Below are positions 64-31,331 of a stretch of 31,360 nt of DNA, piece by piece. Each line of letters opens with the position of its first letter. The first letter of the stretch is position 1. A model generated the notes under the pieces. That model made no database searches. It saw nothing but the letters and a program-made list of their open reading frames with translations, and was not told the DNA's origin. The DNA comes from a virus: the IMG/VR virus record IMGVR_UViG_3300032296_001455, positions 1-31,360 of that record; one strand, 5' to 3'. Made by a program: the position numbers and the translations under genes.

Positions 64-537
64 CTAACCACGGTCCCCGCGTGCACGTCGCAAGCCCCCC
101 TGGTAACGGCGCCGGAAGCACGCAATTTGCTCATGCACCGATGAGACTGCACTCAGCCCCATCATCTTCGCGATGGATCTCATGCTGTGTTTGGAGCCGA
201 GTCCAAGTCCGATGCGTACCACCTCCGTCTGTCCACGTAGGTAGGGGCAGCGGCGAGATCCGATTGAGTCGAGCATGACGCGCAGGATGGTGAGCACCTC
301 TGCCCGGTCATACGTCTGGTGTCTGGTGGTCGCGTCCTCTCCCTCGTCTTGCCTTAGTCGCCAGCACGCCCTGGCTTCGTTCAGCTCCATGACTGTATCG
401 CCAGACTTGGGCAGTTCGCGGTAAGGCCGGTAGCCGGAGGCCCGTGCCTTCCTCTGCTCAGCCTTCGATAGGGAATCGAAGTGGGCATCAGCTGCGCGCA
501 TATGCGCCTGCGGGATGTTGTCCTGAGTCTCGGCCAC
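64..537 (-). CDS. Small helix-turn-helix protein, putative regulator
   Basis: This is a 157-aa basic protein that I cannot assign to a named family. Its C-terminal third (about residues 115-150) contains SMRSIAKMMGLS followed by SVHEQIACFRRRY, which reads as a helix-turn-helix like sigma region 4 or small phage regulators, and it ends in an Arg-rich tail. The start used is GTG at 537. An ATG at 501 is an alternative: it lies in the palindrome GCGCATATGCGC and follows TCCCGCA, close to the leader motif seen before other genes. The gene sits between the iteron region and the left genome end, the last gene on the minus strand. A role in late-gene control or replication control is possible but not shown. 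Confidence 0.6.
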   Translation of the reverse strand: MAETQDNIPQAHMRAADAHFDSLSKAEQRKARASGYRPYRELPKSGDTVMELNEARACWRLRQDEGEDATTRHQTYDRAEVLTILRVMLDSIGSRRCPYLRGQTEVVRIGLGLGSKHSMRSIAKMMGLSAVSSVHEQIACFRRRYQGGLRRARGDRG

Positions 538-7613: not shown

Positions 7614-7930
7614 ACCCTGATAAGACCTATACCTATGACCCCAAGTGGACCATGGAACTGACCGACGACTCGGCCAAGTCCAAGGTCATCATCAACGCCG
7701 TGCCCGAACTGCCGTTCTGGTGGTTCCTCAATCCCTGGCTGACTGTCCAGCATCTCGCCGACGAGCGTGCCCGGCTGGTCAAGCAGTGCAACGATTTGCG
7801 GGCTGACATGGCCGTGCTCGACGACCACGTCTACGACCTGCAGAACCAACTCGACACTGCCAAGGTCGAGCGAGACGCGGCCAACGACGCGGTCGGCTAC
7901 CTCCGCAAGAAAGGCAAACGCCGTGGGTAA
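7610..7930 (+). CDS. Trp-rich small protein with coiled coil, paralogue of the 6293-6625 gene
   Basis: This 106-aa protein contains LPFWWFLNPW followed by a helical stretch and a C-terminal coiled coil (NQLDTAKVERDAANDAV), and ends in a basic tail. The W-W spacing, the Pro-Trp and the following pattern of Leu and Lys match the product of 6293-6625 within the same operon, which indicates duplication and divergence. No enzymatic motif is seen. ATGA overlap with the preceding gene; the next gene starts 8 nt before this stop. Confidence 0.75.
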   Translation: MNPDKTYTYDPKWTMELTDDSAKSKVIINAVPELPFWWFLNPWLTVQHLADERARLVKQCNDLRADMAVLDDHVYDLQNQLDTAKVERDAANDAVGYLRKKGKRRG

Positions 7931-8249
7931 GCGCGCCCCCTACGGCGCCGTGAAGGAAGCCTGCGCCCTGGCTGACGGTTCCGGCCTGACCGCCATGGAC
8001 GTCGCCAAGCGGACCGGCTACCCGGTGCACTCCATCCGATCCTGCGCTCGGGACTACGGCTTCACCCTCCGTGCCGTCCGTAGGCCGCAGGGGTCAGTCA
8101 AGGAACTGGTGCAGACCGCCCTCGACCAGGGGATGACCATCCCGCAGCTTGCGGAAACCTCGGGCATCAATCCCCATACCCTGTACTCAGTCCGCCGACG
8201 CCTCGGCTTTACCCCTTCCCTGCCCCGCCAAGCCCCTAAGCACCCATGA
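7923..8249 (+). CDS. Protein with two HTH-like segments, 108 aa
   Basis: The product contains two similar helix-turn-helix-like segments: LTAMDVAKRTGYPVHSIRS at about 21-39 and MTIPQLAETSGINPHTLYSV at about 71-90. Each is followed by a basic region and a Gly-Phe (DYGFTLRAVRR, RRLGFTPS). This is an internal duplication of a DNA-binding unit. The likely start is GTG at 7923, overlapping the previous stop by 8 nt. It may regulate this block or the neighbouring convergent genes. No close named family is recognised. Confidence 0.75.
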   Translation: MGKRAPYGAVKEACALADGSGLTAMDVAKRTGYPVHSIRSCARDYGFTLRAVRRPQGSVKELVQTALDQGMTIPQLAETSGINPHTLYSVRRRLGFTPSLPRQAPKHP

Positions 8250-10900: not shown

Positions 10901-10934
10901 AATAATAAGGCCGACCCCCTTGCGGAGATCGGCC
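10901..10934 (-). terminator. GCAA-tetraloop terminator after recT
   Basis: On the minus strand GGCCGATCTCC and GGGGGTCGGCC form an 11-bp stem (including two U-G pairs) with a GCAA tetraloop, followed by TTATTATTT. It lies 27 bp after the RecT stop and ends the ligase-RecE-RecT transcript. Its apex TCCGCAAGGG is the same as in the terminator at 8774-8803. Confidence 0.85.
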
Positions 10935-10960
10935 CGGCTACACGGCACTCCTGCGTCAGC

Positions 10961-17928: not shown

Positions 17929-18243
17929 TTAGACCGTGACGCTGTCAGTTACGTTGATACGGAAGATTTCGGAGCGGCTGATGGTCGAGCCGGGAAAGAC
18001 AAATTTCACGTCCCAGTTGGCCCAGCCAAGCGGCCAGTCGGCGGTGTCGCCCGGGTAGGCCACGGTGAACGACAGGCCGTCCAGCGCCTTGGTCACGGTC
18101 AGGGGATACTGCGTGCCGCACCTGTCCTCGACCGTAGAGGTGAGGGTGGTGGCCAGCAGGTTCGCGGGGCCGGTAGCACCCGGGGTCCAGACGAACGTGC
18201 AGGCGAAAGTGTTCCCCTGGCTGACTGTGACACTGTTCGACAT
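17929..18243 (-). CDS. Small beta-rich tail protein, 104 aa
   Basis: A 104-aa protein that looks like a single Ig-like or BppU-like beta domain: alternating hydrophobic strands (FACTFVWTPG, LSFTVAYPGD, WDVKFVFPG) and a Ser/Thr-rich end. Such small domains often sit between the distal tail and the fibre. It starts at 18243 downstream of the CCCGAA-N8-CAATA element, and the fibre gene begins 3 bp after its stop. Function inferred from position. Confidence 0.65.
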   Translation of the reverse strand: MSNSVTVSQGNTFACTFVWTPGATGPANLLATTLTSTVEDRCGTQYPLTVTKALDGLSFTVAYPGDTADWPLGWANWDVKFVFPGSTISRSEIFRINVTDSVTV

Positions 18244-18271
18244 AGGTATACCTATTGTGGCGGATTTCGGG
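18241..18271 (-). promoter_or_regulatory. Late leader element, copy 4
   Basis: On the minus strand CCCGAA, eight bases, then CAATAGGTATA and, after three extra bases, TATG. The spacing between the two blocks is the same as in the other three copies. It lies between the stop at 18281 and the ATG at 18243. Confidence 0.55.
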
Positions 18272-18280
18272 TTTTATCCG

Positions 18281-18784
18281 TCAGAAGGCCGTCAGGTTGC
18301 CGATTGAGACCACGTCCCCCGCGTCTGGCTCGTTTAGGGTAGGGCCAGACCAGACTTGGCGGTATTCGTCCCACAGGGTCGAAGTGATGGCCGTGGTGCG
18401 TCCGTCGAAGAATGTGACGGTTGCGCCTGTCATCACGGCCTTGGCTTCGTCCGTAACCGCATAACTCTCGAACCCGGTCGGACTTCCAGCCTTCGCCTGA
18501 GGGGGTTGAGCCCAGATACGATTGCCACCGATGAAGGGAGGGAAGGAAACCGTAAAGACTTGATTCCAGATTGTAGGCTGTAGCTCATCGGAGTTGGTAG
18601 GCGACAGGGGCCGAGGGCGCCACCTGATAAGACCGCTTCCTGCGGCGGCGGCTTTCTGGCCTGATCCGTAGGTGATGTGGTAGTCGCCAAACTCCGGCAC
18701 GTCGTAGTTCAGCTGCAGGCACCAAGCGCAACGGAACTTGCCCCAGGTCGACGTCGCCGTGGCTGTGCCTACTCCAGTGGCCAT
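18281..18784 (-). CDS. Putative tail protein, 167 aa
   Basis: The protein is unrecognised. It has a CAWC motif near residues 19-22, many aromatic and Pro residues, and beta-like alternation in the C-terminal half. No signal peptide or membrane segment. Its ATG overlaps the stop of the previous large tail gene by one base (TGATG), so it is translated with it. Probably a structural or assembly protein of the distal tail. Confidence 0.65.
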   Translation of the reverse strand: MATGVGTATATSTWGKFRCAWCLQLNYDVPEFGDYHITYGSGQKAAAAGSGLIRWRPRPLSPTNSDELQPTIWNQVFTVSFPPFIGGNRIWAQPPQAKAGSPTGFESYAVTDEAKAVMTGATVTFFDGRTTAITSTLWDEYRQVWSGPTLNEPDAGDVVSIGNLTAF

Positions 18785-20532
18785 CAGATTCGGGCGTAGT
18801 AGTAGGTCGCCGTGGCCGAGCCGAGCTTGATGCGGTCAGCCCACAGCGAGCCGGTGACGAACTGGGTGACGGTCGAGCCGTTGACGGTGGCGATACGGAT
18901 ATAGCCCTCGGCGTCCGTGTCGGACGGCAGCGGGGTTCCGATGTTCCACTCGAAGCCGGAGGTGGCGGGGAAGACCCCAGCCGCGAACGGCGCCTTGACC
19001 CATACTTCGTAGGTGCTCGTCGAGACGGTGATCGTGCTGGCGATGTTGCCAGGGGTGACGTTGTTGACCGTGCCCGAGACGATGGAGTAGGTGGACATAC
19101 CGCCAGTGGTTTCCTCGTGGATGACCTTGAAGGGGTGCATAAAGTCGGGCTCTGGCTCGGGACCGCATCCGCCCGTTTCGCTGTAGTCGAGGGTGTAGGT
19201 CGTGAAAGCGCGCGGTGTGGTGGTGTTGACCACGGGGGTGGCGAAGGCGGGAATGAAAGTCAGCGCATTGGCTGCGGTAGCGTCAGATCGGTTGACCACG
19301 TTGTTGAAGGTAGGGGTGGTGGCCGCGTTGACATAGTAAGGGTCCTGGGCCTCGGTCACGCCTTCCTTGTTCATCAGGAAAGTGGCGTTGAGCTCGCAGG
19401 GAATGACGATGTCCTGCGACCCCACGTGCATCTGGCTGACCTGATACCAGGTCGTGAAGGACGTCAGGGTAGAGTTGGCCGTAAGCGCAGCCACGGAACT
19501 GTTCCGCAGGATGTTGGTGAACTCGATCTGGTAGACACCAGCCGATACCTGCTGGACGAACACGTTGCCGTCCAAGGCCGGGATGGTGTTGAGGCATTCC
19601 TGCAGATCGTAGGCCGACTGCGTGGAAGGGTTAAAGGTGGTCGTGGTCGTGGCCGCTCCGTGGGTAAAGGTCGCCCCGCCGGACTTGTAGTCACCGGCGA
19701 AGACCACCTGCTGGATGCTATTGCCGGCCGATGAGCTGCCGTCCCTGACCACGTTGACAACCACGGTGGACGGAGTAGCCGCGACAGAGTCGATGATGGC
19801 CAGCACGCGGACGTGGTGACCGAAGAAGCGGGGGTTAAAGTAGGTCGTGTGGCAATAGCCCCAGTCCTTGCCGGATACCACCCCAGCGTAACCCGTCATC
19901 TTCTGGACGTTGGTGATGTTCTGGTAAAGGGATGGACCCGAGTCGACGAACAGGGCGTTGAACTCAGCCGAGCCGTCCTTGACGAAGGACACCCAGGGGA
20001 GGTTCTGATCCAGCAGTCCGCCAGTGAAGGCGCCGTTGCCAGCGTCCCACTTCGACAGGGTGACATACCAGCGACCAGTGCCGGTCAGAGCGTAACCGCC
20101 ACCGCCGAGCATCCAAGGGGAGGTTGCGTCAGCCAAGGGGGCTGGCGTGACGCTGGAGGACTTAACCGCGACGAAGTTGATGTATGCCTGCCTGTGGTCT
20201 AGAAACGCCCCAGTCTTGATGTAGGGCATCAAAGAATGCGTATAGGTGACCGAGCCCATGGCCACTTGGATGACAGGGGTCGGGGTGCCCGAGACTGGGA
20301 TGGACAGCACGTTGCACTGGAACTGCTGGGGCTTGTTGAGGTAGGCAGGCGTCAGCAGGGCCGGAAGGTCCGGGGGCTCCGGCGGCTGGGGCGGGTCTGG
20401 GAAGTTCGGCAGCGCGATACCAAACGAGATGCCCGTGTCGCTCGGAGGCGTCCAGGGCTGCTCGATGTTCAGGTTGAATCCGCTCGACGATGCGGAGAAG
20501 GTATATCCGTCGCCGGGCTGGATTGTCTTCAT
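18784..20532 (-). CDS. Large minor tail protein, 582 aa
   Basis: The product is Thr/Ser/Val-rich and beta-like over most of its length. The N-terminus has the Pro-rich linker FPDPPQPPEPPDLPALL at about 50-66, then beta-domain sequence with Ala/Thr-rich stretches. A short acidic linker CGPEPEPDF at about 453-461 marks a second, smaller C-terminal domain. I do not recognise a family. The place between the tape measure and the fibre, and the domain-linker plan, fit a distal tail or baseplate-type protein. It starts 4 bp after the preceding gene and shares one base with the next. Confidence 0.65.
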   Translation of the reverse strand: MKTIQPGDGYTFSASSSGFNLNIEQPWTPPSDTGISFGIALPNFPDPPQPPEPPDLPALLTPAYLNKPQQFQCNVLSIPVSGTPTPVIQVAMGSVTYTHSLMPYIKTGAFLDHRQAYINFVAVKSSSVTPAPLADATSPWMLGGGGYALTGTGRWYVTLSKWDAGNGAFTGGLLDQNLPWVSFVKDGSAEFNALFVDSGPSLYQNITNVQKMTGYAGVVSGKDWGYCHTTYFNPRFFGHHVRVLAIIDSVAATPSTVVVNVVRDGSSSAGNSIQQVVFAGDYKSGGATFTHGAATTTTTFNPSTQSAYDLQECLNTIPALDGNVFVQQVSAGVYQIEFTNILRNSSVAALTANSTLTSFTTWYQVSQMHVGSQDIVIPCELNATFLMNKEGVTEAQDPYYVNAATTPTFNNVVNRSDATAANALTFIPAFATPVVNTTTPRAFTTYTLDYSETGGCGPEPEPDFMHPFKVIHEETTGGMSTYSIVSGTVNNVTPGNIASTITVSTSTYEVWVKAPFAAGVFPATSGFEWNIGTPLPSDTDAEGYIRIATVNGSTVTQFVTGSLWADRIKLGSATATYYYARI

Positions 20533-20535
20533 GGC

Positions 20536-21453
20536 TCAGATCAGGCGGTTGTCACGGTAGACCTTGTCGCTCCAACCTACCAGACTAAAGCGCACTTCAT
20601 AGTTCACCTTGTAGAGCAGGCCGTAGTCCTCGACGTTGACCTGGGACAACAGCAGCTGATTGAAGGAGCCGTTGGCCACGCTTGAGACCCAAGTGGTGCC
20701 AGCGTAGTCGGGGATGATGGGGGGCAGGACGCTCGACCAGTCGTTGTCGCGGGAGGTCGTGCCAAGGTAAGAGACCATGTTCTGGACCTCGGCGGAAGAG
20801 GTTGTGTAGAAATGCCCGGAGAAGGACGACTGAGGGGCAAGGTAGTTCGTCTTGCCGTACAGGTGCTTGAAGTTCGAGTCGACGAAGCCGATGAAGCGGC
20901 CGCCGCTGACGTCCTCGAAGCAAGAGCCGTTCAGTCCGACGTAGGACTGCTTCTTGCTGACGAGGCCGGTGACCGGGGTGCCGTCAGAGTTGTAGCCGGT
21001 GATGACCGAAACGAAGTCCGCAGGGCTCTTGATTTCGACCATCGGTCCGAGCGGGGACTGCGTATAGGTTCGACCTGCGATGATGCCAGCGTAGCCGTCA
21101 CCGCCATCGTCGAAGAAGTTAGGGTTGGCCGTGATGTTCTCGGAGGTCAGGCCGTTTGACGCGGCGACTTCCGGGTTGGTATACAGGCCATCGTTCACAG
21201 TCGGGTCGATGCCGATGTAGTCGACGGTAATCGTGGCGATGCCCAGGTTGTCGTAGGTCACGCCGAACTTGTGCGCGGCGAGGGCCGCGTTGATGGGGCA
21301 GGTCGAGCCTCGGTTGCCGACCGACAGATCGTTGTCCGTGTTCGCCTTCCAGACGCAGGTGGCCGTGAGCAGGCCGTAGCCGTCGTTGCTCAGTTTGGCA
21401 CCGGGCTGTAGCACCGGGGCTGATAGGTTGTTGCCGTAGTCTTGACGTGCCAT
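20536..21453 (-). CDS. Putative tail protein, 305 aa
   Basis: A soluble, Gly/Ser/Asp-rich 305-aa protein without a recognised family. Repeated strands with Tyr and Gly (GDGYAGIIAGRTYTQ, FVSVITGYNSDG) suggest beta structure. The N-terminus is free of a signal peptide. Placed directly after the tape-measure candidate, where siphoviruses encode the distal tail protein, so it may close the tail tube. Assignment by position only. Confidence 0.6.
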   Translation of the reverse strand: MARQDYGNNLSAPVLQPGAKLSNDGYGLLTATCVWKANTDNDLSVGNRGSTCPINAALAAHKFGVTYDNLGIATITVDYIGIDPTVNDGLYTNPEVAASNGLTSENITANPNFFDDGGDGYAGIIAGRTYTQSPLGPMVEIKSPADFVSVITGYNSDGTPVTGLVSKKQSYVGLNGSCFEDVSGGRFIGFVDSNFKHLYGKTNYLAPQSSFSGHFYTTSSAEVQNMVSYLGTTSRDNDWSSVLPPIIPDYAGTTWVSSVANGSFNQLLLSQVNVEDYGLLYKVNYEVRFSLVGWSDKVYRDNRLI

Positions 21454-21461
21454 AAAGGTGA

Positions 21462-22349
21462 TTACATCTGGTCGCCGTAGCCGTCGACGTGGGGGTTTCC
21501 AGTGGGAGCGGCCAGCCAGCCATCAGCCGGGGAAGGACCACCTGCCGCGATACGCTCGAGCAGGGCGGTCTGCTTGCGCTGCTCTTCGAGCTGAGCGGTC
21601 ATCGCTTCCATGACAGGGTTGGCGCCTACGCCTACCACGTTGGAGAAGCCTTCAGGTCCCTTGAAAGAGGTCGGCTTGGAGTCGAGTTCCTTCTGCTTGG
21701 CGATAGTCATCTCGGCGGCTTCCTTCTGCTTGGCAGCGGCGGTTTCTGCCTTGGCTTCCGGGGAGTCTGCCATGCGGGCCTGAGCACGGCGCTCGAGGAC
21801 ATCCTGCATATCCTTGTCCTTGCTCATATCGCTCAGGCCAAAGTAAAAGAGCATACCCTTCATGTCTCGCTTGAAGGCTTCCATGCCGCCCATCTTGGCC
21901 CCTTCGGCTTCGTATTGGGCGAGGGCCGCGTCGGCCTCTCCGCCGAAACCTAGGACGCCGCCTTCTTTCAGCTGCTCAGCGGCGAGGGCTTCGGCTGCGA
22001 TCTCGGCGTTCTTGCGGTCAAGAGCGTCCTGCCTGCGCTTGGCGACTTCCCGGGCGGAGGCGGTGGTGCCTGCGCGCATATACTTGTTCTCGCCCTTCTC
22101 CGCGTCGGCCAGAGCGTCACGCACGTCTTGGCGGGACTTCTCGATGGCGGACGAGATCATGTTGATGGCCTGATTCAGGATAACCATCGGCGCCGCGAAG
22201 GAGAGGAACAGGTCCTTGCCGAAGCTCTTGAACTTCGACTCGATGCCCTGCATATTCTTCTCCAGGTTGGAGACGGACTGCTTGACGCGGTCTGTGACCT
22301 TCTCGGCGTTGGTGTCGCCGTTGATGCTGAATTGGATTACGTTGCTCAT
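21462..22349 (-). CDS. Tape-measure candidate, unusually short
   Basis: A 295-aa, mostly helical protein. Residues 1-45 are charged and coiled, 47-69 form a hydrophobic segment (LFLSFAAPMVILNQAINMI), and a long Ala/Glu/Lys-rich helical rod follows to about 240, with a Gly/Pro-rich end. A long helix with one membrane-like segment, between tube/chaperone genes and distal tail genes, is the profile of a tape-measure protein, which sets tail length and is ejected with the DNA. At about 0.15 nm per residue it would give a tail of only about 44 nm. No other longer helical gene is present. Coupled to the upstream gene by ATGA. Confidence 0.6.
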   Translation of the reverse strand: MSNVIQFSINGDTNAEKVTDRVKQSVSNLEKNMQGIESKFKSFGKDLFLSFAAPMVILNQAINMISSAIEKSRQDVRDALADAEKGENKYMRAGTTASAREVAKRRQDALDRKNAEIAAEALAAEQLKEGGVLGFGGEADAALAQYEAEGAKMGGMEAFKRDMKGMLFYFGLSDMSKDKDMQDVLERRAQARMADSPEAKAETAAAKQKEAAEMTIAKQKELDSKPTSFKGPEGFSNVVGVGANPVMEAMTAQLEEQRKQTALLERIAAGGPSPADGWLAAPTGNPHVDGYGDQM

Positions 22350-22885
22350 TTTTGTTTGTCCATTTCCTCCATGAGTTTCTCTTCCTCGGTGGTCAGGACT
22401 TTCAGCTCGGCGCCCTTGATGACGGCAAAGGCCGAGTTCATCCAGATTGCTTGGGACTCAGGCATGGTCCATGCCCGGGTCTCGGGGATGCCGTTGGCAA
22501 CCAGATTGGCCACGACCGAAAGCACCCAGGGGATGCCGGTGGCGTCACCGTTTCGGCTGCGCTTCTGCCAGAACTTAGGCCAAGACTCGACCAGCACGAT
22601 CTGCGAGAACTTGTCGATTTGCTCGGCGAAGTAGTCCGGGTTGTTGGCCATCTTGCCGACGTGCCAGGAGTCGAGGAACGAAGCCTTGCCCATGGGTTCA
22701 CCGGCGCAGATCTTCACGGCCACCAGCAGGTCGATGGGGCGGATCTGCGCGTCGGAGCGGAGAAGGGGGCTGTCCGCCGCTTCCAGTTGGACGCGGTGAA
22801 TCAGCGCAAATGGCGCGACCCTACGCCCAAGAATCTTTACTTGGTCAGAAGGGTCCGTGAAGGCGCTCAGGAAGCGCCTGTCCAT
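22346..22885 (-). CDS. Tail assembly chaperone candidate, 179 aa
   Basis: The protein has an N-terminal domain with RRFLSAFTDPSD and RVAPFALIHRVQLE, a helical middle with conserved Trp/His residues, and a highly charged C-terminal tail (EEEKLMEEMDKQK). The pattern and the position between tube and tape-measure candidates fit a tail assembly chaperone. In lambda this gene is extended by a -1 frameshift (G/GT). An A-rich run precedes the stop here, but no extension frame is evident because the next gene starts inside the stop. The ATG immediately follows the tube stop. Confidence 0.6.
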   Translation of the reverse strand: MDRRFLSAFTDPSDQVKILGRRVAPFALIHRVQLEAADSPLLRSDAQIRPIDLLVAVKICAGEPMGKASFLDSWHVGKMANNPDYFAEQIDKFSQIVLVESWPKFWQKRSRNGDATGIPWVLSVVANLVANGIPETRAWTMPESQAIWMNSAFAVIKGAELKVLTTEEEKLMEEMDKQK

Positions 22886-23263
22886 TTAGGAAATCCCCTC
22901 GTATCCGACAGCAGTGACAGAGACGGCGGAGTAGCCGCGATTCGAGCCTTTGTCCGAAACCTTGGTGACCCAGCCCGAGAACGAAGTCGAAGCAGTACCA
23001 CCAGCGTATGACGAGGCGGTGTTGACCGTGACTTCAAAAGAAGCACCGAGGACCGGGATGGCGCTGGTCTTGGCAATCATCTCGACCGTGATCTGAGTCT
23101 TGCGGTCATCGCCGCGCCAAGCGACGGTGAGACCGTTCTCGTCGACGATGGTGGCCTCGGCGGTGAACTCACCGTCGTTGGTGTAACTTTGCACCACGGC
23201 GTTGGAGACGAGGGTGTCGCCACAGCCATAGATTGCACTGACGCCCTGGACGATTGCTGCCAT
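22886..23263 (-). CDS. Tail tube protein candidate
   Basis: A 125-aa beta-rich protein (TAEATIVDENGLTVAW, ITVEMIAKTSAIPVLG, SYSAV-type strands) of the size and place expected for a siphovirus tail tube subunit. It follows the tail terminator candidate and precedes the chaperone. It has its own CCCGAA-N8-CAATA element upstream, in line with a highly expressed gene. No family motif is decisive. Confidence 0.6.
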   Translation of the reverse strand: MAAIVQGVSAIYGCGDTLVSNAVVQSYTNDGEFTAEATIVDENGLTVAWRGDDRKTQITVEMIAKTSAIPVLGASFEVTVNTASSYAGGTASTSFSGWVTKVSDKGSNRGYSAVSVTAVGYEGIS

Positions 23264-23287
23264 ATACCTATTGTCTGGTAGTTCGGG
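23261..23287 (-). promoter_or_regulatory. Late leader element, copy 3
   Basis: CCCGAA (23287-23282), eight bases, CAATAGGTATATG with the ATG of the tube gene at 23263. It starts directly after the TAA stop of the preceding gene and fills the whole 24-bp gap. Confidence 0.55.
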
Positions 23288-23722
23288 TTACTGAGGGTTC
23301 ACCACAATCAGCAGGTCGTAGGAGAAGACCGAGGCCCAGGAGCGCTCGTTTACCCCCTCGTCCTCAGCGGTGGGGGTGATGTCGTAGCAGAGGGCATCCC
23401 CGCTGGCCACGAAGCCCGCCTTGATGGCGGTAAGGTCCTGCATGGCTCCGGCGATGGCGGCGCAGCGCTCGCGGTGCTGGCTTAGGGTGGTGTCGTCGGC
23501 GGAGTCGAATACGGTCACCCGGACCCCGCAGTTGTAGTTGCCGAGGCCGTCAGGGAAGTCGTTCGGCAGCCGGGCGGAGTCGCATAGGACCACGCACTTG
23601 GGGAGCGTGGCGGTCTCAGCTGAGTCCCCGGTATAGAACGTGACGCCATTCAGTTCTGGCTGGCTGTCGAGGTAGGAAGCCAGGACGGCTTCCACGATGT
23701 GTCGTGCGGATTTGTAGCCCAT
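23288..23722 (-). CDS. Tail terminator candidate (lambda gpU position)
   Basis: A 144-aa protein: an N-terminal helix (ARHIVEAVLASYLDSQ), then beta strands including KCVVLCDSAR, CGVRVTVFDSAD and VFSYDLLIVV. This helix-then-strands pattern, and the place between the completion protein and tube genes, match tail-terminator proteins of the gpU type, which cap the tail tube and connect it to the head. The identification is from context and general pattern. Followed directly by late element copy 3. Confidence 0.6.
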   Translation of the reverse strand: MGYKSARHIVEAVLASYLDSQPELNGVTFYTGDSAETATLPKCVVLCDSARLPNDFPDGLGNYNCGVRVTVFDSADDTTLSQHRERCAAIAGAMQDLTAIKAGFVASGDALCYDITPTAEDEGVNERSWASVFSYDLLIVVNPQ

Positions 23723-23726
23723 AAAG

Positions 23727-24710
23727 TTATTTGGATTTCTTGCGGTTGGCCCGTTCGATGGCGTCCCGCATACGAGCCTGCACCGTGTCCTTGATTTGGC
23801 GAACGCGATTTCCGTAGACGATGTTCTCGGTGTTGGCGTCCTTGGCCACGTTGTTGATGTTGCCGATCAGGTTCTGGATGGTCATCGAGACGCGGCTCTT
23901 GGTGACCGATTGGCTGAAGACCCCCGTGCCGGAGCGGATGTTGGAATCCACCCAGGGCGCGTTGTAGACGCCGAAGTTGCGCTCGACTCCCTTCTTGTTC
24001 ACGGGCTTGGGAATCTGCCGGAGGTTGAACGCCCACCCGGCCTTGACGCGGCCGACCTTCTGCTGGCGGTCGAGGATGTAGGCATTCAGGGCGGCGGTCG
24101 ATTCGATGTAATACTGCGGGCCTCCGATGGGCTGGTTGCGCTTCCATCGTCCGTTCACGGCGTTCTTATACTTGTCGTGGATGGGACGCGGGTCCGGGGC
24201 GAGGCCGGCCACAGGTCGATAGGTGCCACGGATGTTGGCCTTGTTCAGGTAGTTGCTGGCCTTCTTGAACGCCCGGTGGTGGTCGGTGTCCTGCATGATC
24301 TTGCGGAGGACAGGGGACAGGCCGCGAACCTTGCCAGCGGTCTGGCTGGTATAGACGTCCAGCCACTCGGCGCCGAAGCCGCCCTCAGCACCTCGGCCAA
24401 GTTTCACCGCGTTCACGATCTGGCGGAGAAAGACGGACTTGCCCTTCACCGGGGCGTCCTGGGGAATGAAGATGCGTTTGACGTCGTTGCCTAGCTTGTT
24501 GGCACCGGCACGGCGCGCAGCGTCCAGCAGGCCACGGCCTCCGCCCTTGGGCATAGGGGGCGTGAAGGTCATGGCGTCCCGGCACATCAGGCGCATCTGC
24601 TCCCGCCCGATCTGCTCGAGGTCACCGCCGACCTGCTTGGCGAACTCGTCCAAGGCCATAGTGAAGTCCAACAGGGACTTCGGGTCGATGGCTGGGTTGC
24701 CCTTAGCCAT
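23727..24710 (-). CDS. Head-tail completion or minor tail protein (gp10/gpZ type)
   Basis: A 327-aa basic protein. The N-terminal region LDEFAKQVGGDLEQIGREQM with a following FTPPMPKGGG resembles the start of HK97 gp10/lambda gpZ-like tail completion proteins (helix, then TPxxTG-type loop). The rest is rich in Asn, Arg and Lys and ends NRKKSK. It is longer than usual gp10-like proteins. Its ATG shares one base with the preceding stop (TAATG). Confidence 0.55.
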   Translation of the reverse strand: MAKGNPAIDPKSLLDFTMALDEFAKQVGGDLEQIGREQMRLMCRDAMTFTPPMPKGGGRGLLDAARRAGANKLGNDVKRIFIPQDAPVKGKSVFLRQIVNAVKLGRGAEGGFGAEWLDVYTSQTAGKVRGLSPVLRKIMQDTDHHRAFKKASNYLNKANIRGTYRPVAGLAPDPRPIHDKYKNAVNGRWKRNQPIGGPQYYIESTAALNAYILDRQQKVGRVKAGWAFNLRQIPKPVNKKGVERNFGVYNAPWVDSNIRSGTGVFSQSVTKSRVSMTIQNLIGNINNVAKDANTENIVYGNRVRQIKDTVQARMRDAIERANRKKSK

Positions 24711-25081
24711 TACTGGTTATCGTCGATGCACTCCAGCTCGATGACGGCGCTGGCCTGCTTGTAAGCCTGACCCTTGACCCGGAGGACCTGCCCGTTGACC
24801 GTCAGTTTCTTACCTTCGGCTAAGGAGGCGATAGGGACGCCCGAGACGATGGTGGCTACCTGCCCTCCAACCCGACCATCAGAAGCCGTCCAAGGGGCCG
24901 TAGCGGCGGCGAATCGCACCGTCCACATCTTCTGGTCGACGAAGCCCCCCGCGTCGAACTTGGGGGTGTTCATGGGGCGGGACAGGGCAACCAGGAAGAG
25001 GTTGCCGTTGACGCTGGCCGGGACGCCTACGTCCGCCAACAGTCCTTGGAAGTCTGCGAGAAAGGTCTGGTAGATGCTCAT
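24710..25081 (-). CDS. Head-tail connector candidate, 123 aa
   Basis: The protein starts MSIYQTFLADFQGLLADVG and continues as beta-rich sequence (FLVALSRPMNTP, KMWTVRFAAATAPW, VATIVSGVPIAS). It lies at the first position after the major capsid gene and terminator, where siphoviruses encode connector or stopper proteins. The ATG at 25081 was chosen because a longer frame (to 25114) would run into the terminator hairpin. No specific family recognised. Confidence 0.6.
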   Translation of the reverse strand: MSIYQTFLADFQGLLADVGVPASVNGNLFLVALSRPMNTPKFDAGGFVDQKMWTVRFAAATAPWTASDGRVGGQVATIVSGVPIASLAEGKKLTVNGQVLRVKGQAYKQASAVIELECIDDNQ

Positions 25082-25100
25082 GGGTTGGAAAGGGGGATAC

Positions 25101-25125
25101 AAAAAAGCCCCCATTGCTGGGGGCT
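25101..25125 (-). terminator. Terminator after the major capsid gene
   Basis: On the minus strand AGCCCCC and GGGGGCT form a 7-bp stem (25125-25119 with 25112-25106) with a 6-nt loop, followed by TTTTTT. It lies 21 bp after the capsid stop. Partial termination here would raise capsid mRNA above that of downstream tail genes. Confidence 0.85.
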
Positions 25126-25145
25126 GTTCAGAGGCTCAGCCCCGA

Positions 25146-26000
25146 TTAGGGGTTGTAGACCGAGGCGATGGTGCCCGTGGTGATGCCCTTGGCCGCGCCG
25201 AACATCAGTTCCATGGAACCGATGAGGTTACGGGTGGAGGGGTCGACCCAGACGTTGTACGAGACCGAGATGCCGAGACCTTCGATCGGGACGACTTCGC
25301 GGACGAGGAACTGGTTGCCGACGGCGTCGAGGTCCGGGCTGGCAGCGGCCATAGCCACGGCTTCAGCCGAGCAGGCGAAACCAGCGAGTTTGGCTTCAGA
25401 CGGGAAGACGTTGGCGTAGAACACGCCGCCTTCGAAACCGTAAGCACCTTCAGCGAGAGGAAGGGAGTTGGTGCTGTTCGGGATGAGGTTGCTGTAGATG
25501 CCCGGGTTGACGATGAGCGTCTTGCGACCGGCCTTGCTGACACCAGCCCAGAGAGCCTTGAGTTCAGCAGAGCCAGGGATGACAGCCGAGTCGGCAGCGG
25601 TGACCGTGGCGGCGCCGAAGTTGGCGACGGTGATCGGAGCGGTAGCGGCGGCCCAGATGGAGTCGGCCAGCTTGTCCATGTTGATCTTCAGGATCTTCTC
25701 GAGGCGGATGCCGTTCTGGACATCAGCGTAGGAGAGGCCGAAGGGCTGGTAGAGGTGGTTCAGTTCCACGGCAGAGGCACCGAGGGTGCTGGCGCCGATG
25801 GAATTAAACGAGGTCGGGTTGGTCAGCGTGGTGCTGCCAGCGGTGGAGAGAGCCACCTGGACGACGTCCTTCGGGCGCTTCACGTCCGAGGAGAAGTCGG
25901 AGGCGAAGTTGCGAAGACCGGCGAGGCGGTTCGAGAGGGAGGTGAGGCTGAGCTCGGCGACGGTGTCGACGATCAGAGCGCTGTTGATGGTGTTAGCCAT
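25146..26000 (-). CDS. Major capsid protein
   Basis: A 284-aa protein rich in Ala, Ser, Thr and Val with no Cys-rich or catalytic motif. The order protease, scaffold candidate, this gene, terminator, connectors is that of HK97-fold phages. The sequence has an N-terminal helical arm, a central segment KILKINMDKLADSIWAAA that resembles the long spine helix, and C-terminal strands (VSYNVWVDPSTRNLIG, a loop-like P-domain end). Length fits a small HK97-fold capsid. A strong terminator directly after the gene suggests high, isolated expression. The family subtype cannot be fixed by eye. Confidence 0.8.
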   Translation of the reverse strand: MANTINSALIVDTVAELSLTSLSNRLAGLRNFASDFSSDVKRPKDVVQVALSTAGSTTLTNPTSFNSIGASTLGASAVELNHLYQPFGLSYADVQNGIRLEKILKINMDKLADSIWAAATAPITVANFGAATVTAADSAVIPGSAELKALWAGVSKAGRKTLIVNPGIYSNLIPNSTNSLPLAEGAYGFEGGVFYANVFPSEAKLAGFACSAEAVAMAAASPDLDAVGNQFLVREVVPIEGLGISVSYNVWVDPSTRNLIGSMELMFGAAKGITTGTIASVYNP

Positions 26001-26027
26001 AGTGGGTTATGATATGTGGGTGAAGGG

Positions 26028-26435
26028 TTACTTGGAAAAGAGGACGGCCTTGTGCTTCTTGAAGAACGCACGGCGCTCAGGGCCAGCAGGCATCGAGGCG
26101 TACTGATCGGCGAGCGAGACGGCGGCGGCGGCAGCGGTGTCTTCGGCCTTGACGGCTTCGACGCCAGAAGAGGCGAGGATGTTCGCGGCTTCCTTGGCGC
26201 CGGACTGCACGGAGGCTTCCAGGGCGGAAACCTTGGCGTTGGCTTCTTCAAGCTTCGCGGCGAGGTCAGCCAGGGCGGCGTCCTTCTCGGCGAGGGAAAC
26301 CTTGGCGGCGTCCAGTTCGACGGAGACGTTGACGGCGGCGGCTTCGACGCTCTTGCGGAGGTCGTCGCGCTCAGACGTCAGGGAGATGACAGCGGCCTCG
26401 GCGGCCTTGAAGCGTTCTTCGATGGTGAGAGCCAT
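26028..26435 (-). CDS. Scaffold candidate, coiled-coil protein
   Basis: A 135-aa highly charged, Ala/Glu/Lys-rich protein predicted to be almost one long coiled coil (EERFKAAEAAVISLTSERDD onward), with a C-terminal end PERRAFFKKHKAVLFSK resembling the capsid-binding tails of phage scaffolds. It stands directly between the S49 protease and capsid genes, the place of Nu3 in lambda, where the protease and scaffold share a gene; here they are separate. It starts downstream of late element copy 2. Confidence 0.75.
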   Translation of the reverse strand: MALTIEERFKAAEAAVISLTSERDDLRKSVEAAAVNVSVELDAAKVSLAEKDAALADLAAKLEEANAKVSALEASVQSGAKEAANILASSGVEAVKAEDTAAAAAVSLADQYASMPAGPERRAFFKKHKAVLFSK

Positions 26436-26458
26436 ATACTATTGCGGGGTAGTTCGGG
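26433..26458 (-). promoter_or_regulatory. Late leader element, copy 2
   Basis: CCCGAA (26458-26453), eight bases, CAATAGTATATG, with the ATG at 26435. It begins right after the protease stop codon and occupies the entire gap before the scaffold-capsid pair. Confidence 0.55.
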
Positions 26459-27262
26459 TTAGGTGGTCCGCTCGAACTCTTCGAGGGCGGCGTTGAAGGA
26501 CGTGGCCAGCCCGGTGATGAGCCCCTTTTCGGCGGCTTCTTCGCCAGTAAACACTTGGCCTTCCATGTCTTCGTCCCTGGCGTAAGAGCGCTTGCGCTTC
26601 ACGACAGACTTGAAGCGGTCGTGCATACGCTCGATGCGGCGCTGCTCTTCGCCGCGCATATCTTCGGAGTAGCCTTCTCCGGCCACGTTGGCGGCCTTCA
26701 GTTTACCCGCACGGAAGATTTCGAGCTGCAGGCCGATCTGCTTGTAGTGCTCGGCGTAGGACTCGTCGACCATGATGACGCCGATGGAGCCGACGTAAGC
26801 GGACGGAGAGGCCAGCACGTGGTCGGCCTGACTGCCCCAATAGAAACCACCCGAGGCCATCAGGTCCTTGGTATAGGCCATGGTCGGCAGCGGAAGCATG
26901 GCCACCTTGTCGGCGAGCTCAGGGGTGCCGAGGACGGAACCGCCCGGGCTGGAGATGTTGAAAGCGATACGCTTCACCGCAGGGTTGGCGAGAGCCTCGT
27001 CAATCTGGTCGGAGATTTCCTCCATGTCGGCGCCGCCAGTGAGTTTCTCGAACTTGGTGAGACCGATACCCAGCACACCCTTGGCGCTGATGACCGCCGT
27101 GCCGTTCGGGGTCACGTAGGGCTTGGCGACAGGGTTGAAGAACATATCGAGCACGCCTTCGACCACGCCGTACTTCTCGGCGTACTTGGCGTGGTTCGCG
27201 GCCTTGATCGGGTCGCAGAGCATCGGCTCGCGACCACAGAGAGCATTGTGTAAAGACTTCAT
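26459..27262 (-). CDS. S49-family head maturation protease
   Basis: The 267-aa protein is of the SppA/lambda gpC type, which cleaves scaffold and portal or capsid parts during prohead maturation. Visible: FNISSPGGSV (102-110) of the crotonase-like fold, MASGGFYWGS with the catalytic Ser137, AYVGSIGVIM (about 156-164), and FRAGKLKAAN with Lys189, 52 residues after the Ser as in Ser/Lys dyads of this family. It lacks the C-terminal scaffold extension of lambda gpC, consistent with the separate scaffold gene next door. ATGA overlap with the portal gene. Confidence 0.92.
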   Translation of the reverse strand: MKSLHNALCGREPMLCDPIKAANHAKYAEKYGVVEGVLDMFFNPVAKPYVTPNGTAVISAKGVLGIGLTKFEKLTGGADMEEISDQIDEALANPAVKRIAFNISSPGGSVLGTPELADKVAMLPLPTMAYTKDLMASGGFYWGSQADHVLASPSAYVGSIGVIMVDESYAEHYKQIGLQLEIFRAGKLKAANVAGEGYSEDMRGEEQRRIERMHDRFKSVVKRKRSYARDEDMEGQVFTGEEAAEKGLITGLATSFNAALEEFERTT

Positions 27263-28749
27263 GGGTTAGAGGGGGCGGGAGGTTCGGGGACGTCCAGGTT
27301 GTCGGCGACGTCTTGCGACATCTGCGCCGGGGTCTGGCCCTGCTGGAGCCAGTTGAACGCGGACTGATAAATCATCCAGAGGGGAAGGCCCGCATCCTTG
27401 GCGGCCTGAACCATGGCGGACATTTCCTTCACGCGGGTCGAGACGACCTCTTCGTGGGTCATGCCCTTCTTGCCGAGGATGGCGGTGGCCGTGGTCAGAC
27501 CCATCTGCAGGTCGGCACGGTCTTGCGCGGCTTCGCGGCCAGCGTCGACGGTGACGTCGCGCGGGGTGATCCACGTCTTGCGGTTGAAGTAGGGGTCGTC
27601 CGGCAGTTCGCCGTTCTGGATACCCCAGGAGATGACGAAGTCCCACGTGTCGTCACAGACGGTGTCGATGGTCAGGTTCTGCCATTTCGCGGCGATGCGT
27701 GAGACCTTGGCGGCCACTAGGCGGATAGCCGGGCCGGTGATGCCGGAAGGGTCGGAGACGTATTCGACAGGGAGCAGCTTGACGATGTCGCGCTCGATGG
27801 CCTTCATCATGCCGACCCAAGCTGGCGATGGGCGGTTTGATGCGATTTGGGTTAGATCTTCATTGGTATCCACCACGGCGAGTTTGCCGCCCATCTGGCT
27901 GGCAAGTCGCTCGCAGGAACCGTTAGCGGAACCGCCAGCGAACTGTGCGGCGGCATCGTCCTGAAGCATACCACCTGCCTTTTTCAGCAACATGACGTGG
28001 TCGCTCGCCGCGCGGAGAGCGGTCTTCTCTAGCTCGAAGACCTCGAGCTGATCCTGCACAGAATTGAGGCTAGACTGCAGCACTGGGTATCCGCGAACGG
28101 AGGACGCACGCTCGAACTCGCAGACGTGGCTCATGGACTCGACAGGGATGAACCTGTCCTTCTTGTCGCCGTCGACGTAGATGTTGTAGCCGACCACTTC
28201 GCCGTAGGAACCGAGGTAGACGCCGTCAACGCACTTGGGGTTGAACTCGTCCTTGGTCGGACCGACGCGGTGGGCTTCGATGAGTTGGACGCGAGGCCGG
28301 CCGGTCTTCGGGTCGTAGGTCTTCAGCAGGAACGCATCCCCATCGACCAGCGAACCGAACAGGCTGAGGCGCTGCACTTGGCCGAACGTGAAGCGACCGC
28401 TGATGTCGCACTTCTTCGACCAGTTGCGGAAGTACTCTTCGTACTGCGCGGCCTTCTTCGGGTCCTGTGCCAGGGACTGAGGCACGAGGCCGTCACCGAT
28501 GGTGACCAGCACGACCTCGTCCATGACCTGCTTGTAGGTCGGAGAGTTGCGGATACCCCAGCGGGACTTACCGATCATCTGGATACGGTTGACCGAAGAC
28601 AGGTCAGTGCGACCGTCGGACGGCGCCGAGGTCAGCAGCCAACGCCGGGTGGCCGACTGGGTCGTGCTCGCGTATTGGCTGTAGTTCGCCCCCGCCTGCT
28701 TCCGAGGCGACTTAGTTGCAGGCGTTTTGGGTGTCTTCTTGGTGGCCAT
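27259..28749 (-). CDS. Portal protein, lambda gpB type
   Basis: The 496-aa product forms the dodecameric ring through which DNA enters and leaves the head. It has the lambda-type portal pattern: an N-terminal NSPTYKQVMDEVVLVTIGDG, HVCEFERASSVRGYPVLQSS (the conserved RG-P block), VEYVSDPSGITGPAIR near residue 330, and PYFNRKTWITPRDVTVD. A basic N-terminal tail (KKTPKTPATKSPRKQ) precedes the fold. The ATG at 28749 shares one base with the gpW-like stop; a longer frame upstream overlaps that gene. Lies between the joiner and protease genes as in lambda. Confidence 0.93.
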   Translation of the reverse strand: MATKKTPKTPATKSPRKQAGANYSQYASTTQSATRRWLLTSAPSDGRTDLSSVNRIQMIGKSRWGIRNSPTYKQVMDEVVLVTIGDGLVPQSLAQDPKKAAQYEEYFRNWSKKCDISGRFTFGQVQRLSLFGSLVDGDAFLLKTYDPKTGRPRVQLIEAHRVGPTKDEFNPKCVDGVYLGSYGEVVGYNIYVDGDKKDRFIPVESMSHVCEFERASSVRGYPVLQSSLNSVQDQLEVFELEKTALRAASDHVMLLKKAGGMLQDDAAAQFAGGSANGSCERLASQMGGKLAVVDTNEDLTQIASNRPSPAWVGMMKAIERDIVKLLPVEYVSDPSGITGPAIRLVAAKVSRIAAKWQNLTIDTVCDDTWDFVISWGIQNGELPDDPYFNRKTWITPRDVTVDAGREAAQDRADLQMGLTTATAILGKKGMTHEEVVSTRVKEMSAMVQAAKDAGLPLWMIYQSAFNWLQQGQTPAQMSQDVADNLDVPEPPAPSNP

Positions 28750-29000
28750 CAGAGGTCGATGCGGTAGGTCCAAGTCTTCTGGACCGAGGTATGGGCGCCG
28801 CCATACTTGGCACTGTCCAGCTTAGATAGCGCGAAATTAATCTCGAGCATCCGGGTCTGCGGGGGGATGCCCCACTGCTTGTTGACCGAGGTACCGCTGT
28901 CAGAATAGGACGTGACCGCTAAGCCCATATCGGCAAGAGCCTGCTGCTTGTAGGCGAGCAAGGTATCTTCATCCAACCCTACGAACAACCCGAGAGGCAT
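28749..29000 (-). CDS. gpW-like head-tail joining protein
   Basis: An 83-aa protein at the place of lambda gpW, between large terminase and portal. The helical N-terminal part with DEDTLLAYKQQALADM, then SYSDSGTSVNKQWG and a C-terminal helix with beta end matches the size and secondary-structure order of gpW, which plugs the portal and allows tail joining. The start at 29000 is supported by late element copy 1 directly before it; an ATG at 29099 would lie deep inside the terminase gene. Confidence 0.75.
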   Translation of the reverse strand: MPLGLFVGLDEDTLLAYKQQALADMGLAVTSYSDSGTSVNKQWGIPPQTRMLEINFALSKLDSAKYGGAHTSVQKTWTYRIDL

Positions 29001-29024
29001 ATACTTATTGCCTCTCAGTTCGGG
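28998..29024 (-). promoter_or_regulatory. Late leader element, copy 1
   Basis: CCCGAA (29024-29019), eight bases, CAATAAGTATATG with the ATG at 29000. It overlaps the end of the large terminase gene, whose stop codon TAA is part of the CAATAA block. Confidence 0.55.
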
Positions 29025-30828
29025 TTGGTTCGGCATCCCTGCCGACGATGCCCCACCGGCAGGCGATGAGCATCCCGAGCAGTTCGCAGTCGAAAGCATG
29101 GTTGTGCTTCACGCCCTGGCGCAACCGCCAGATGGGTTTGCCTCCCTCCTTCACGCGGGTCTCGGAGTTCAACTGCATCACGTAGTCCTCGGTCGCATCC
29201 CGGGCGAAGCTGAAGACCTTGCGCGCGCGCAGGCCGTAGAACAAGTCCTTGCCCGAGAGGTTAGACCAGACCACCAGCGAGGTCGGCTTCTGCACCCCCG
29301 GCACGTGGATCGCGGAAGGCGATTGATAGAACCGGCGGACCATGTCCCCGTTCTTCGTCTTCACGTTGAAATACTCCTGGCCGGAACCCTTGGCGCAACC
29401 CCACCCACGGATGGCGCACTGCTTGTACACCTCCTGCGTGTTGTTGCCGTCACCCGAGTCGACCATGACGAGCTGAGGGTGGACGCCCCACTTGGCCGCC
29501 ATAGCGTCGAGCCCGGTCCAATCGGTCAGGCCGTCGTTCGACAGCACCTTTTCGTAGGTCGCCAGACGGCTGTGCCCGGTGCGACTCCAGCGCCGCACGA
29601 TAATCCAGAAGTGGTCGCCCTGACAATCGATGGCCAGCGTGACGAACGGAACCGACCCGGGCGGGGCTTCCTCCTTGTCGACGATCTGGCCACGCGGCCC
29701 GATGTAGCAGGTGGCCGACCACTCGTCCTTCATGGCGTAGTCAGAGGACTCCGTGCTCACGACGAGTGAGCCTGTCTCGTCCGCCCACGGGAGAGCCAAG
29801 TACTGCTGCTTGAACAGCATCCTGGGCGTGATGTCACCGAGCTCGGCGACCTCCTTCGCCTTGATCATGTCGACGGCCAGAGACCCCCAGCTCGTAGAGG
29901 CGAGAGCGTTGACGTGCAGACCGACGTAGCCTGCCTTCTCCGGCTTGGCCGTGGCGACGAAGCCAGCCCCACGCTCGACCTCGTTCGCGATCGTCCGCAC
30001 CTCGTCATTGTCCTCCAACCGCGCCTTGCAGTGCGGGCACTCGTAGGTCGTGCCGTTCTGCACCTGCTCCAAGTCCCAGCCGTCGATGCCTTTCGCCCCG
30101 TCCGGAAACCTCACAAAATCCCAAGACCACGCACTCGTCTTGGAGCACGCCGGGCACGACATCATCCACTCGCGCTGGTCGGTCATCAGGTAGAACTTCC
30201 AGAACTCCGCCCCTTGTCCTTCGATGTTCCCGGGCTGGCTCTCGTAGACCGCCTTCGACGCGAACGCCGCTGCCTTCAATCGGGACAGAGACATCGCCAC
30301 CGCACCGTTCGGCCACTGCCAGATTTCCGAGCCGAGGACGTAGCGGACGTGCAAGGACTGCAGGTGCTTCTCCGTCGACGCCGATCGGTTGTGAATCAGC
30401 GAGCCGTCAGCGAACCTCAAGGTCCCCGACTTGTCGTTATCGTCGGCGCTCATCTGCGCGCGGATGTCGGCCACCTGCTCGAACAAGGGGCGCAGCTCGT
30501 TCAGCGTGAAACCCTTCGCCTTGTCCTGGCTGTCGAGGTAGATGGCCATCGACGCCCGGCGGTTCGCCATCAGGTAGGTCGCAATCAGTTTCAGCGTCAG
30601 CGTCTTCCCACAGCCGATTGCCCAGGGCATGAACATCCGGCTCGTCGTCGACTGGTTGAAGATGCGGACAGCCTCCGCGATCCACGGCCAGCGCTTCGGG
30701 TTGTACCCGCCGTCGAACACGCCAGCAGGAATCTTCTTCACGTTGTGCCGCAGGTAGTCGACCGGGTCGGACATCGCCGACGGCCTGACCACCGTCAGCC
30801 CTTCGCGGAACAGTTCCTCGGCGTTCAT
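29005..30828 (-). CDS. Large terminase subunit, lambda gpA family
   Basis: The 607-aa packaging motor cuts concatemers at cos and pumps DNA into the head. An ATPase part with P-loop MPWAIGCGKTLTL (about 68-80) is followed by a four-Cys zinc-type insert (CPAC and CPHC pairs). The nuclease part carries acidic residues in LAIDCQGDHFWI, VMVDSGDGNNTQEVY and KHNHAFDCELL, in the order seen in gpA. Start ATG at 30828, in an ATGA overlap with the small subunit stop; a longer frame runs into that gene. Length is close to lambda gpA (641 aa). This family implies cohesive-end packaging. Confidence 0.95.
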   Translation of the reverse strand: MNAEELFREGLTVVRPSAMSDPVDYLRHNVKKIPAGVFDGGYNPKRWPWIAEAVRIFNQSTTSRMFMPWAIGCGKTLTLKLIATYLMANRRASMAIYLDSQDKAKGFTLNELRPLFEQVADIRAQMSADDNDKSGTLRFADGSLIHNRSASTEKHLQSLHVRYVLGSEIWQWPNGAVAMSLSRLKAAAFASKAVYESQPGNIEGQGAEFWKFYLMTDQREWMMSCPACSKTSAWSWDFVRFPDGAKGIDGWDLEQVQNGTTYECPHCKARLEDNDEVRTIANEVERGAGFVATAKPEKAGYVGLHVNALASTSWGSLAVDMIKAKEVAELGDITPRMLFKQQYLALPWADETGSLVVSTESSDYAMKDEWSATCYIGPRGQIVDKEEAPPGSVPFVTLAIDCQGDHFWIIVRRWSRTGHSRLATYEKVLSNDGLTDWTGLDAMAAKWGVHPQLVMVDSGDGNNTQEVYKQCAIRGWGCAKGSGQEYFNVKTKNGDMVRRFYQSPSAIHVPGVQKPTSLVVWSNLSGKDLFYGLRARKVFSFARDATEDYVMQLNSETRVKEGGKPIWRLRQGVKHNHAFDCELLGMLIACRWGIVGRDAEPTRTERQ

Positions 30829-31331
30829 GCTTCGGGCGGGCGGAAGGCGTCCGCCGCGTTCGCAATCTTCTCCCGGGCTTCGAGCGCCCAAGCCGTCAGG
30901 ACAGTGATGGCCTTGATGGGGTCTTTCGGGTTTGAGTTCTCGCCGCACTCCGAGGCCAGCGCGTCCAGCCGCTCGACGATCAGGCCAGCCAGACGGAGCA
31001 TCGCTTCGCGCGCTTCGGTCGCTTCGATTCTGTCACGAGCTGCGAGGGCTCTGCGTTCAGACTCTTCTTGCAGTGCCACCAGTTGCTTCAGGCTCTGGCC
31101 ATACGTGACCTGATACTTCCCGGTCTCGGCATCACCGGCTCTGAGCATCCGCTCGTACTTCTCGCGGGCGAGCACGACCAGGCTCTCGTGCTTGCTGATC
31201 GTCTCGGCGAAGTTCGCGTCGGGGATTCCCTCCACGTCGAGGGATTCCCTTTCCTTTTTCGGTCGCCCCGGCTTGCGCTTGGTTTCCACCAAATCAGAAA
31301 CAGGCGTTTTTTCCTCGTTTTCAAAAGTCAT
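30825..31331 (-). CDS. Small terminase subunit candidate
   Basis: The 168-aa protein starts with a disordered acidic stretch and the AT-hook-like KRKPGRPKK, then helical sequence with repeated charged segments (LVVLAREKYERMLRAGDAET, LKQLVALQEESERRALAARD), and a C-terminal helix ending FRPPEA. Small terminases bind the packaging site and hold the large subunit; DNA binding via the basic segment fits. It is the first gene from the right end, 19 bp from the terminal repeat, and overlaps the large subunit by ATGA. Leader lacks a Shine-Dalgarno sequence and has a run of six T and four A before the ATG. Confidence 0.8.
   Translation of the reverse strand: MTFENEEKTPVSDLVETKRKPGRPKKERESLDVEGIPDANFAETISKHESLVVLAREKYERMLRAGDAETGKYQVTYGQSLKQLVALQEESERRALAARDRIEATEAREAMLRLAGLIVERLDALASECGENSNPKDPIKAITVLTAWALEAREKIANAADAFRPPEA

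Follow-up and report, generated by a model that had tools for sequence, protein, structure and literature searches.

RinA, Ltr, and Alt are late transcriptional activators of staphylococcal and lactococcal phages, and Ltr and Alt act at one sigma-A late promoter by binding about four direct repeats that lie far upstream of it, at about -107 to -32 (PMC13123087). The SAS/ESAS elements of cluster K mycobacteriophages comprise a contiguous 13-mer resembling GGGATAGGAGCCC with a Shine-Dalgarno-like GGAG, and they occur at many genes (PMC3203893). Stoperators of cluster A mycobacteriophages are up to about 30 sites spread genome-wide and bound by the immunity repressor of these temperate phages (PMC6550527; PMC9283540). 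Here we describe a two-part element, CCCGAA-N8-CAATA, at the starts of four virion genes in a 31,360-base stretch of viral DNA (IMG/VR record IMGVR_UViG_3300032296_001455, positions 1 to 31,360; this whole stretch is called the window below). We favor, with moderate confidence, the view that the element is a late promoter that would give leaderless or nearly leaderless mRNA and would be read with the help of a phage protein that we call LateR. Within this proposal, the assignment of the reader role to LateR is less certain than the rest.

The element resembles the RinA/Ltr, SAS, and stoperator systems and is a member of none of them, because for each system one or more of the features that define it were looked for here and not found. 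As with RinA, Ltr, and Alt, a small phage regulator gene lies directly upstream of terS and drives late genes (LateR has this position, and its role is proposed), but here there would be four promoters, each with a single asymmetric two-part site that almost reaches the ATG. As in SAS/ESAS, whose extended part varies by subcluster, an asymmetric repeat stands just before start codons, mostly in one orientation. Unlike SAS, the element is bipartite with a variable 8-base spacer, has no GGAG, serves four virion genes, and switches its whole recognition block. Stoperators, too, are asymmetric and share one orientation, and their consensus has diverged together with a phage DNA-binding protein; here, however, there are 4 sites per near-complete genome, placed at late gene starts, and the phage has no visible integrase. 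The late promoter of the AR9 nvRNAP, AACA-N6-TA/G, also has two short blocks at a fixed distance, a purine start directly after TA, and late genes downstream, but it needs a phage multisubunit polymerase and has long leaders of 26-491 nt (PMC5312081). Thermus phage P23-45 has late promoters without a -35 element, uses the host polymerase, and encodes a phage protein that displaces sigma region 4; its middle and late promoters differ in being extended -10 promoters of ordinary geometry, and its gp39 does not bind DNA (PMC7403470). A literature search for closer systems found nothing closer.

Exact matches to CCCGAA-N8-CAATA number four in the 31,360 bases, all on the minus strand (29024-29006, 26458-26440, 23287-23269, and 18271-18253), compared with 0 in 100 dinucleotide shuffles of the window. 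Allowing two mismatches added 0 sites, against 4.7 expected by chance from the shuffles. All four copies begin with AACCCGAA, and the base directly after CAATA is A or G in each, giving a start region of the form CAATA-R(1-2)-TATA. The copies and the genes they serve are as follows, with distances counted from CAATA to the ATG.

29006..29026, minus strand: element copy 1, AACCCGAACTGAGAGGCAATA, 5 nt upstream of the ATG at 29000, overlapping the 3' end of terL
28749..29000, minus strand: adaptor-like gene, 83 aa, between terL and portal; function assigned from position
26440..26460, minus strand: element copy 2, AACCCGAACTACCCCGCAATA, 4 nt upstream of the ATG at 26435
26028..26435, minus strand: scaffold-like gene, 135 aa, between the protease and capsid genes; function assigned from position
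23269..23289, minus strand: element copy 3, AACCCGAACTACCAGACAATA, 5 nt upstream of the ATG at 23263
22886..23263, minus strand: tail-tube candidate, 125 aa; function assigned from position
18253..18273, minus strand: element copy 4, AACCCGAAATCCGCCACAATA, 9 nt upstream of the ATG at 18243
17929..18243, minus strand: 104-aa gene preceding the collagen-like fiber gene

The functions of these four genes are proposed from their positions and neighbors. A preliminary description of this DNA had reported the four minus-strand copies at virion gene starts and a TATA-containing start region 1-2 bases after CAATA, and the pattern search and shuffles bear out both. Its further statements also hold: the scaffold and tube copies fill the entire intergenic gap, directly after the preceding stop codon, and the copy before 29000 is partly coding, overlapping the end of the terminase open reading frame (ORF). 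It had also stated that the element matches neither a sigma70 promoter nor a Shine-Dalgarno site, and we looked for both at the four sites and found neither.

The element is conserved in relatives at the same four genes and in the same orientation, a check that the preliminary description had asked for, and by their orthologous starts the relatives fall into three groups. About 100 relatives were collected overall, most of them through capsid-protein homology: a pattern scan of viral contigs gave 29 stretches, and capsid-protein scans, which are blind to the element, gave about 120 loci. Since the group-1 contigs of the pattern scan were fetched with the pattern itself, conservation of their block 1 and spacer is partly a product of selection. 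This does not apply to the loci of groups 2 and 3 or to about 12 group-1 loci, which were obtained independently of the pattern. Four pattern matches (L017, L022, L026, and L030) were left out of trees and consensus, and we rejected three of them (L017, L022, and L026) as probable chance matches to coding DNA. Block 1 is AACCCGAA in group 1, AACCTTAC or AACCCTAC in group 2, and GTTGCC or GATGCC in group 3. The full consensus reads AACCCGAAct-N6-CAATA in group 1, AACCTTACc-N6-CAATA in group 2 (AACCCTACc at the pre-fiber gene), and G[TA]TGCC(c)-N4-CCGCA[GA]-TTT in group 3. The spacer is exactly 8 bases at every unique site of groups 1 and 2 (27/27 and 87/87). In near-complete genomes each of the four genes has one element, whereas G012 and G013, which are incomplete contigs, carry three and two. 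A lone extra site, in a group-3 contig (G009, the contig of L120), is a fifth copy at 28532 on the minus strand, 18 nt before the start of a gene encoding MSQKLEYELK.

This distribution bears on the possibility that the element is an operator, at which a phage repressor or a roadblock protein keeps the late genes from being transcribed too early in infection. Such a role would fit sites that are asymmetric, uniformly oriented, placed in short gaps, specific to a group, and accompanied by a co-varying protein, much as in the cluster A stoperators (PMC6550527; PMC9283540). Against it, there are just four sites, all adjoining the start codons of late virion genes; no integrase is found among the genes annotated in the window, and no conserved upstream promoter that could be repressed is seen. 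We consider an operator quite unlikely.

Element types do not mix within a genome. Mixed types occur in 0 of the 98 distinct loci that carry more than one copy; some of these loci share a contig, so that the independent contigs number fewer than 98. This uniformity is not mere co-inheritance, because group-1 and group-2 phages can carry near-identical capsid and tube proteins (identity of the major capsid protein up to 97%, of the tube protein up to 94%) and because of the tube-gene tree. In that tree, group-1 phages are not one clade (approximately unbiased (AU) test, p 0.013), and parsimony places 5 changes of type, at least 3 of them forced by well supported branches. In one group-1 phage (L013), the tube gene falls within the group-2 genes, but the element is that of group 1. 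The capsid tree speaks more weakly on the non-monophyly of group 1 (AU p 0.149). Most simply, these results mean that an element has to fit a factor of the genome that carries it.

That factor could be sought in the host instead: the element might be a promoter for an alternative host sigma factor, read without any phage factor, with group differences mirroring host differences. The rigid spacing is reminiscent of -24/-12 type promoters, and a metagenome-assembled genome (MAG) of Opitutia has several sigma factors. However, groups 1 and 2 exchange capsid and tube genes, so they probably have common hosts, and a change of specificity between such close relatives is not expected. Nor do the group-1 and group-2 blocks fit the sigma54 consensus TGGCAC-N5-TTGCW, as they lack GG/GC at the relevant positions; group 3 is only loosely similar. 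A host sigma factor acting alone is, in our judgment, very unlikely.

The best candidate for the reader, on sequence comparison, is LateR, which appears to be sigma-region-4-like rather than a demonstrated sigma factor.

64..537, minus strand: LateR, candidate element reader, 157 aa, with a C-terminal helix-turn-helix (HTH) like sigma region 4
30825..31331, minus strand: terS candidate, 168 aa, at the end of the linear contig opposite LateR; function assigned from position

In relatives, the LateR gene lies directly upstream of terS, and the location of the two at opposite ends of the window suggests circular permutation. Orthologs are present in all three groups, with identities of 62-68% in full group-2 genomes and about 25% in group 3. 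Between groups 1 and 2, identity is as low as 38% in the HTH (columns 117-149), compared with 74% for residues 1-78 and 69% for residues 79-116, while identities of the HTH within the two groups are 94% and 71%; the group-1 proteins have a one-residue insertion in it. Among 1776 stretches in 24 shared proteins, the LateR HTH discriminates groups 1 and 2 best, and the types of LateR and element agree in all contigs in which the two can be compared. Aligned by hhalign with sigma region 4, the LateR profile gives a probability of 95 and a score of 47.5, whereas 60 column shuffles reached no more than 16.9. Its four profile matches in the PDB are all to sigma region 4 (E 0.06-0.67, none significant). 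No sequence relation of LateR to the RinA, ArpU, and Ltr family models was found in Pfam, PHROGs, or NCBIfam; the AlphaFold model of LateR and the Foldseek search were of too low a quality to bear on its fold.

Small HTH proteins are also encoded in the early cluster (7263-8249, plus strand), and the HTH stretch of one of them (7263-7613, plus strand) likewise differs strongly between groups 1 and 2, being one of two stretches that come close behind the LateR HTH in discriminating them. This protein does not follow the element type, since it is 81% identical to that of the window in G013, which bears group-3 elements. G013 (the contig of L105; 24,900 bases) is a natural chimera that combines group-3 structural genes and elements with window-like early genes (RecT 98% and ligase 91% identical to those of the window).

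We propose that block 1, at about -25 to -16 from the ATG, would be a recognition site with a group-specific sequence, and that block 2 together with the AT-rich stretch (CAATA-R-TATA) would adjoin the start site. Transcription would begin at the ATG itself or within a few bases upstream of it, producing leaderless mRNAs or leaders shorter than about 10 nt, and LateR would most likely act as an activator or a sigma-like partner of the host RNA polymerase. Four such promoters could supply extra late dosage of the adaptor, of a terminator-closed scaffold-capsid unit, of the tube gene, and of the pre-fiber gene. The start site, the polymerase, the binding, and the timing in this scheme are what we infer from sequence.

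The scaffold-like and capsid genes form one transcription unit that ends in a terminator, as the preliminary description had noted.

25146..26000, minus strand: major capsid protein candidate, 284 aa, a distant relative of gene 11 (P22-coat-like) of phage P8625
25106..25125, minus strand: intrinsic terminator directly after the capsid gene, kept in relatives

The terminator follows this unit in 74 of 75 relatives (11/11 in group 1, 42/42 in group 2, and 21/22 in group 3), compared with 0 of 12 other gene ends tested and 1 of 400 random stretches. The first ATG of the following ORF overlaps with it, and that ORF probably starts at a more internal codon.

The main rival is that the element acts in translation, as an mRNA site through which a phage RNA-binding protein or a small RNA controls initiation of the four genes, the host being one that does not use Shine-Dalgarno sites. 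Its location at start codons suits this role, as does the scarcity of Shine-Dalgarno sites elsewhere: their frequency in the window is 0.12 against 0.14 at a control position, the other groups likewise show no enrichment, and GGAG/AGGA-type complementarity 5-12 nt before the start was not found at the four element sites. A group-specific phage factor of this kind would explain one type per genome equally well. Moreover, the RNA around copy 1 (28980-29028, minus strand) is predicted to form a strong hairpin (z -5.3), the loop of which contains the ATG. The other three window copies and two group-2 sites do not fold better than shuffles, and we rejected shared RNA structure as the signal, since only 1 of the 6 tested sites does so. 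A guide or antisense RNA was rejected as well, because exact complements occur only within the elements themselves and there is no separate complementary copy to serve as a guide.

The distance to the ATG also weighs against a signal in translation. It ranges from 1 to 38 nt overall: 3-9 nt in groups 1 and 2 and, measured from the end of TTT, 1-11 nt at most group-3 sites and 35-38 nt in one subgroup of group 3, in which the tube gene has a leader of its own. This variation indicates that the element is not tied to the start codon. In addition, most genes of the same phage start without the element, and the protein that co-varies best with it carries an HTH of the DNA-binding type. The rival is thus weakened, and we regard it as unlikely.

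The late-promoter reading is favored by the conserved terminator of the capsid unit, by the subgroup with 35-38 nt leaders, and by the type-matched sigma-region-4-like protein, and it is further backed by the rigid internal spacing and the lack of a common RNA fold. Near-leaderless mRNAs would lose nothing that the phage uses elsewhere, since these phages make no use of Shine-Dalgarno sites; the Opitutia MAG shows weak use (0.13 vs 0.06). The preliminary description had left a choice between a promoter for an unusual sigma factor with short leaders and a translation signal. The terminator, the leader subgroup, and LateR support its promoter part; for its sigma factor, LateR offers a candidate that is region-4-like, and the translation part has lost ground. 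As a separate observation, group-3 capsid genes (e.g., L106, L111, and L142) have a conserved pyrimidine-rich leader type before the ATG, CAACCCTCACC..TAAACTAAT, which is unlike the element and is possibly a translation-friendly leader in phages free of Shine-Dalgarno sites.

A promoter could also be read by a phage-coded RNA polymerase, either T7-like or multisubunit. The purine after CAATA and the very short leader resemble promoters of such enzymes, and the AR9 late promoters start at their last base (PMC5312081). However, the 31-kb window holds no unassigned ORF of polymerase size. A search for polymerase families in 16 records found none, although the control was likewise silent, so that this is no proof of absence. 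We consider a phage polymerase extremely unlikely.

Several observations weigh against a late promoter read by LateR. No -35/-10 pair with a 16-18 bp spacing exists at the four sites, and the three pairs in the region are close to the shuffle mean of 2.7. Ordinary -10 spacing would put the start inside some of the genes, and the contacts made by the polymerase must therefore be unusual. An RNA-level element in a short leader is also compatible with the conservation. The lead of the LateR HTH is small (35 vs 33 for the next best stretches), with only two group-1 proteins in the test, and the agreement between LateR type and element type could partly reflect shared ancestry. Finally, group-3 LateR alone has no match to sigma region 4, and the AlphaFold model of LateR is poor (pLDDT 61).

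P8625, a cultured phage of Puniceicoccales sp. IMCC8625 in the class Opitutia (PMC4642752), offers an outgroup. Its relationship to the window is distant, with 21-33% identity in TerL, portal, capsid, and helicases. Its genome (L196, KP792622) contains five TTGnnA-N17-TAnnnn-N7-ATG sites on the coding strand, at 5412, 9620, 10736, 15558, and 17505, and several of these have a common GTATCC..GGATAC repeat at about -22 to -4. A sixth copy of the repeat, at 11267, lies well upstream of the gene in the tube position. To judge from their sequence, these sites have sigma70 geometry with a start at or next to the ATG and are apparently late-gene promoters, and the TTG annotated as a start at 9620 is probably part of a promoter, with the gene starting at 9658. 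The word promoter is absent from PMC4642752. P8625 thus resembles the window in having a repeat at about -22 to -4 of late gene starts, including that in the adaptor position, and in being apparently leaderless there; it differs in its recognizable -35/-10 hexamers at 17 bp, in the palindromic form of the repeat, and in that no LateR relative was found. This geometry points to leaderless late mRNAs as the norm in such phages and backs a start near the ATG in the window. The phage group probably infects Verrucomicrobiota. A genome scan for the host yielded two short MAG contigs, from Opitutia (L146) and Aurantimicrobium (L145), which we set aside, as either is possibly a binned phage contig.

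The gene order in the window is terS-terL-adaptor-portal-protease-scaffold-capsid-...-tube-...-fiber. Among the virion and packaging genes, only portal, protease, TerL, and fiber have clear family matches, and the capsid protein had no match when searched against a phage collection. Rfam and tRNA searches of the window returned nothing. A second strong terminator-like hairpin, of 12 pairs, lies between the RecT gene and the next gene (10908-10935, minus strand).

What would such a system mean? We tentatively suggest, as a possibility that we hold with less than even confidence, that a phage-coded sigma-region-4-like HTH protein defines a new class of promoter: two-part, with an 8-bp spacer, located at -25 to -5, and yielding leaderless late mRNAs. 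Its specificity may have switched at least two times, with the HTH and the four promoters changing together and recombined late genes being forced to the type of their new genome. If this is true, these phages would offer a natural series of matched regulator-promoter pairs, probably in phages of Verrucomicrobiota, hosts that make little use of Shine-Dalgarno sites and have almost no studied phages. The analysis names a candidate protein and a segment of it, the LateR HTH, for testing. A regulatory code, it would follow, can change at several sites together while the genes it serves continue to recombine.

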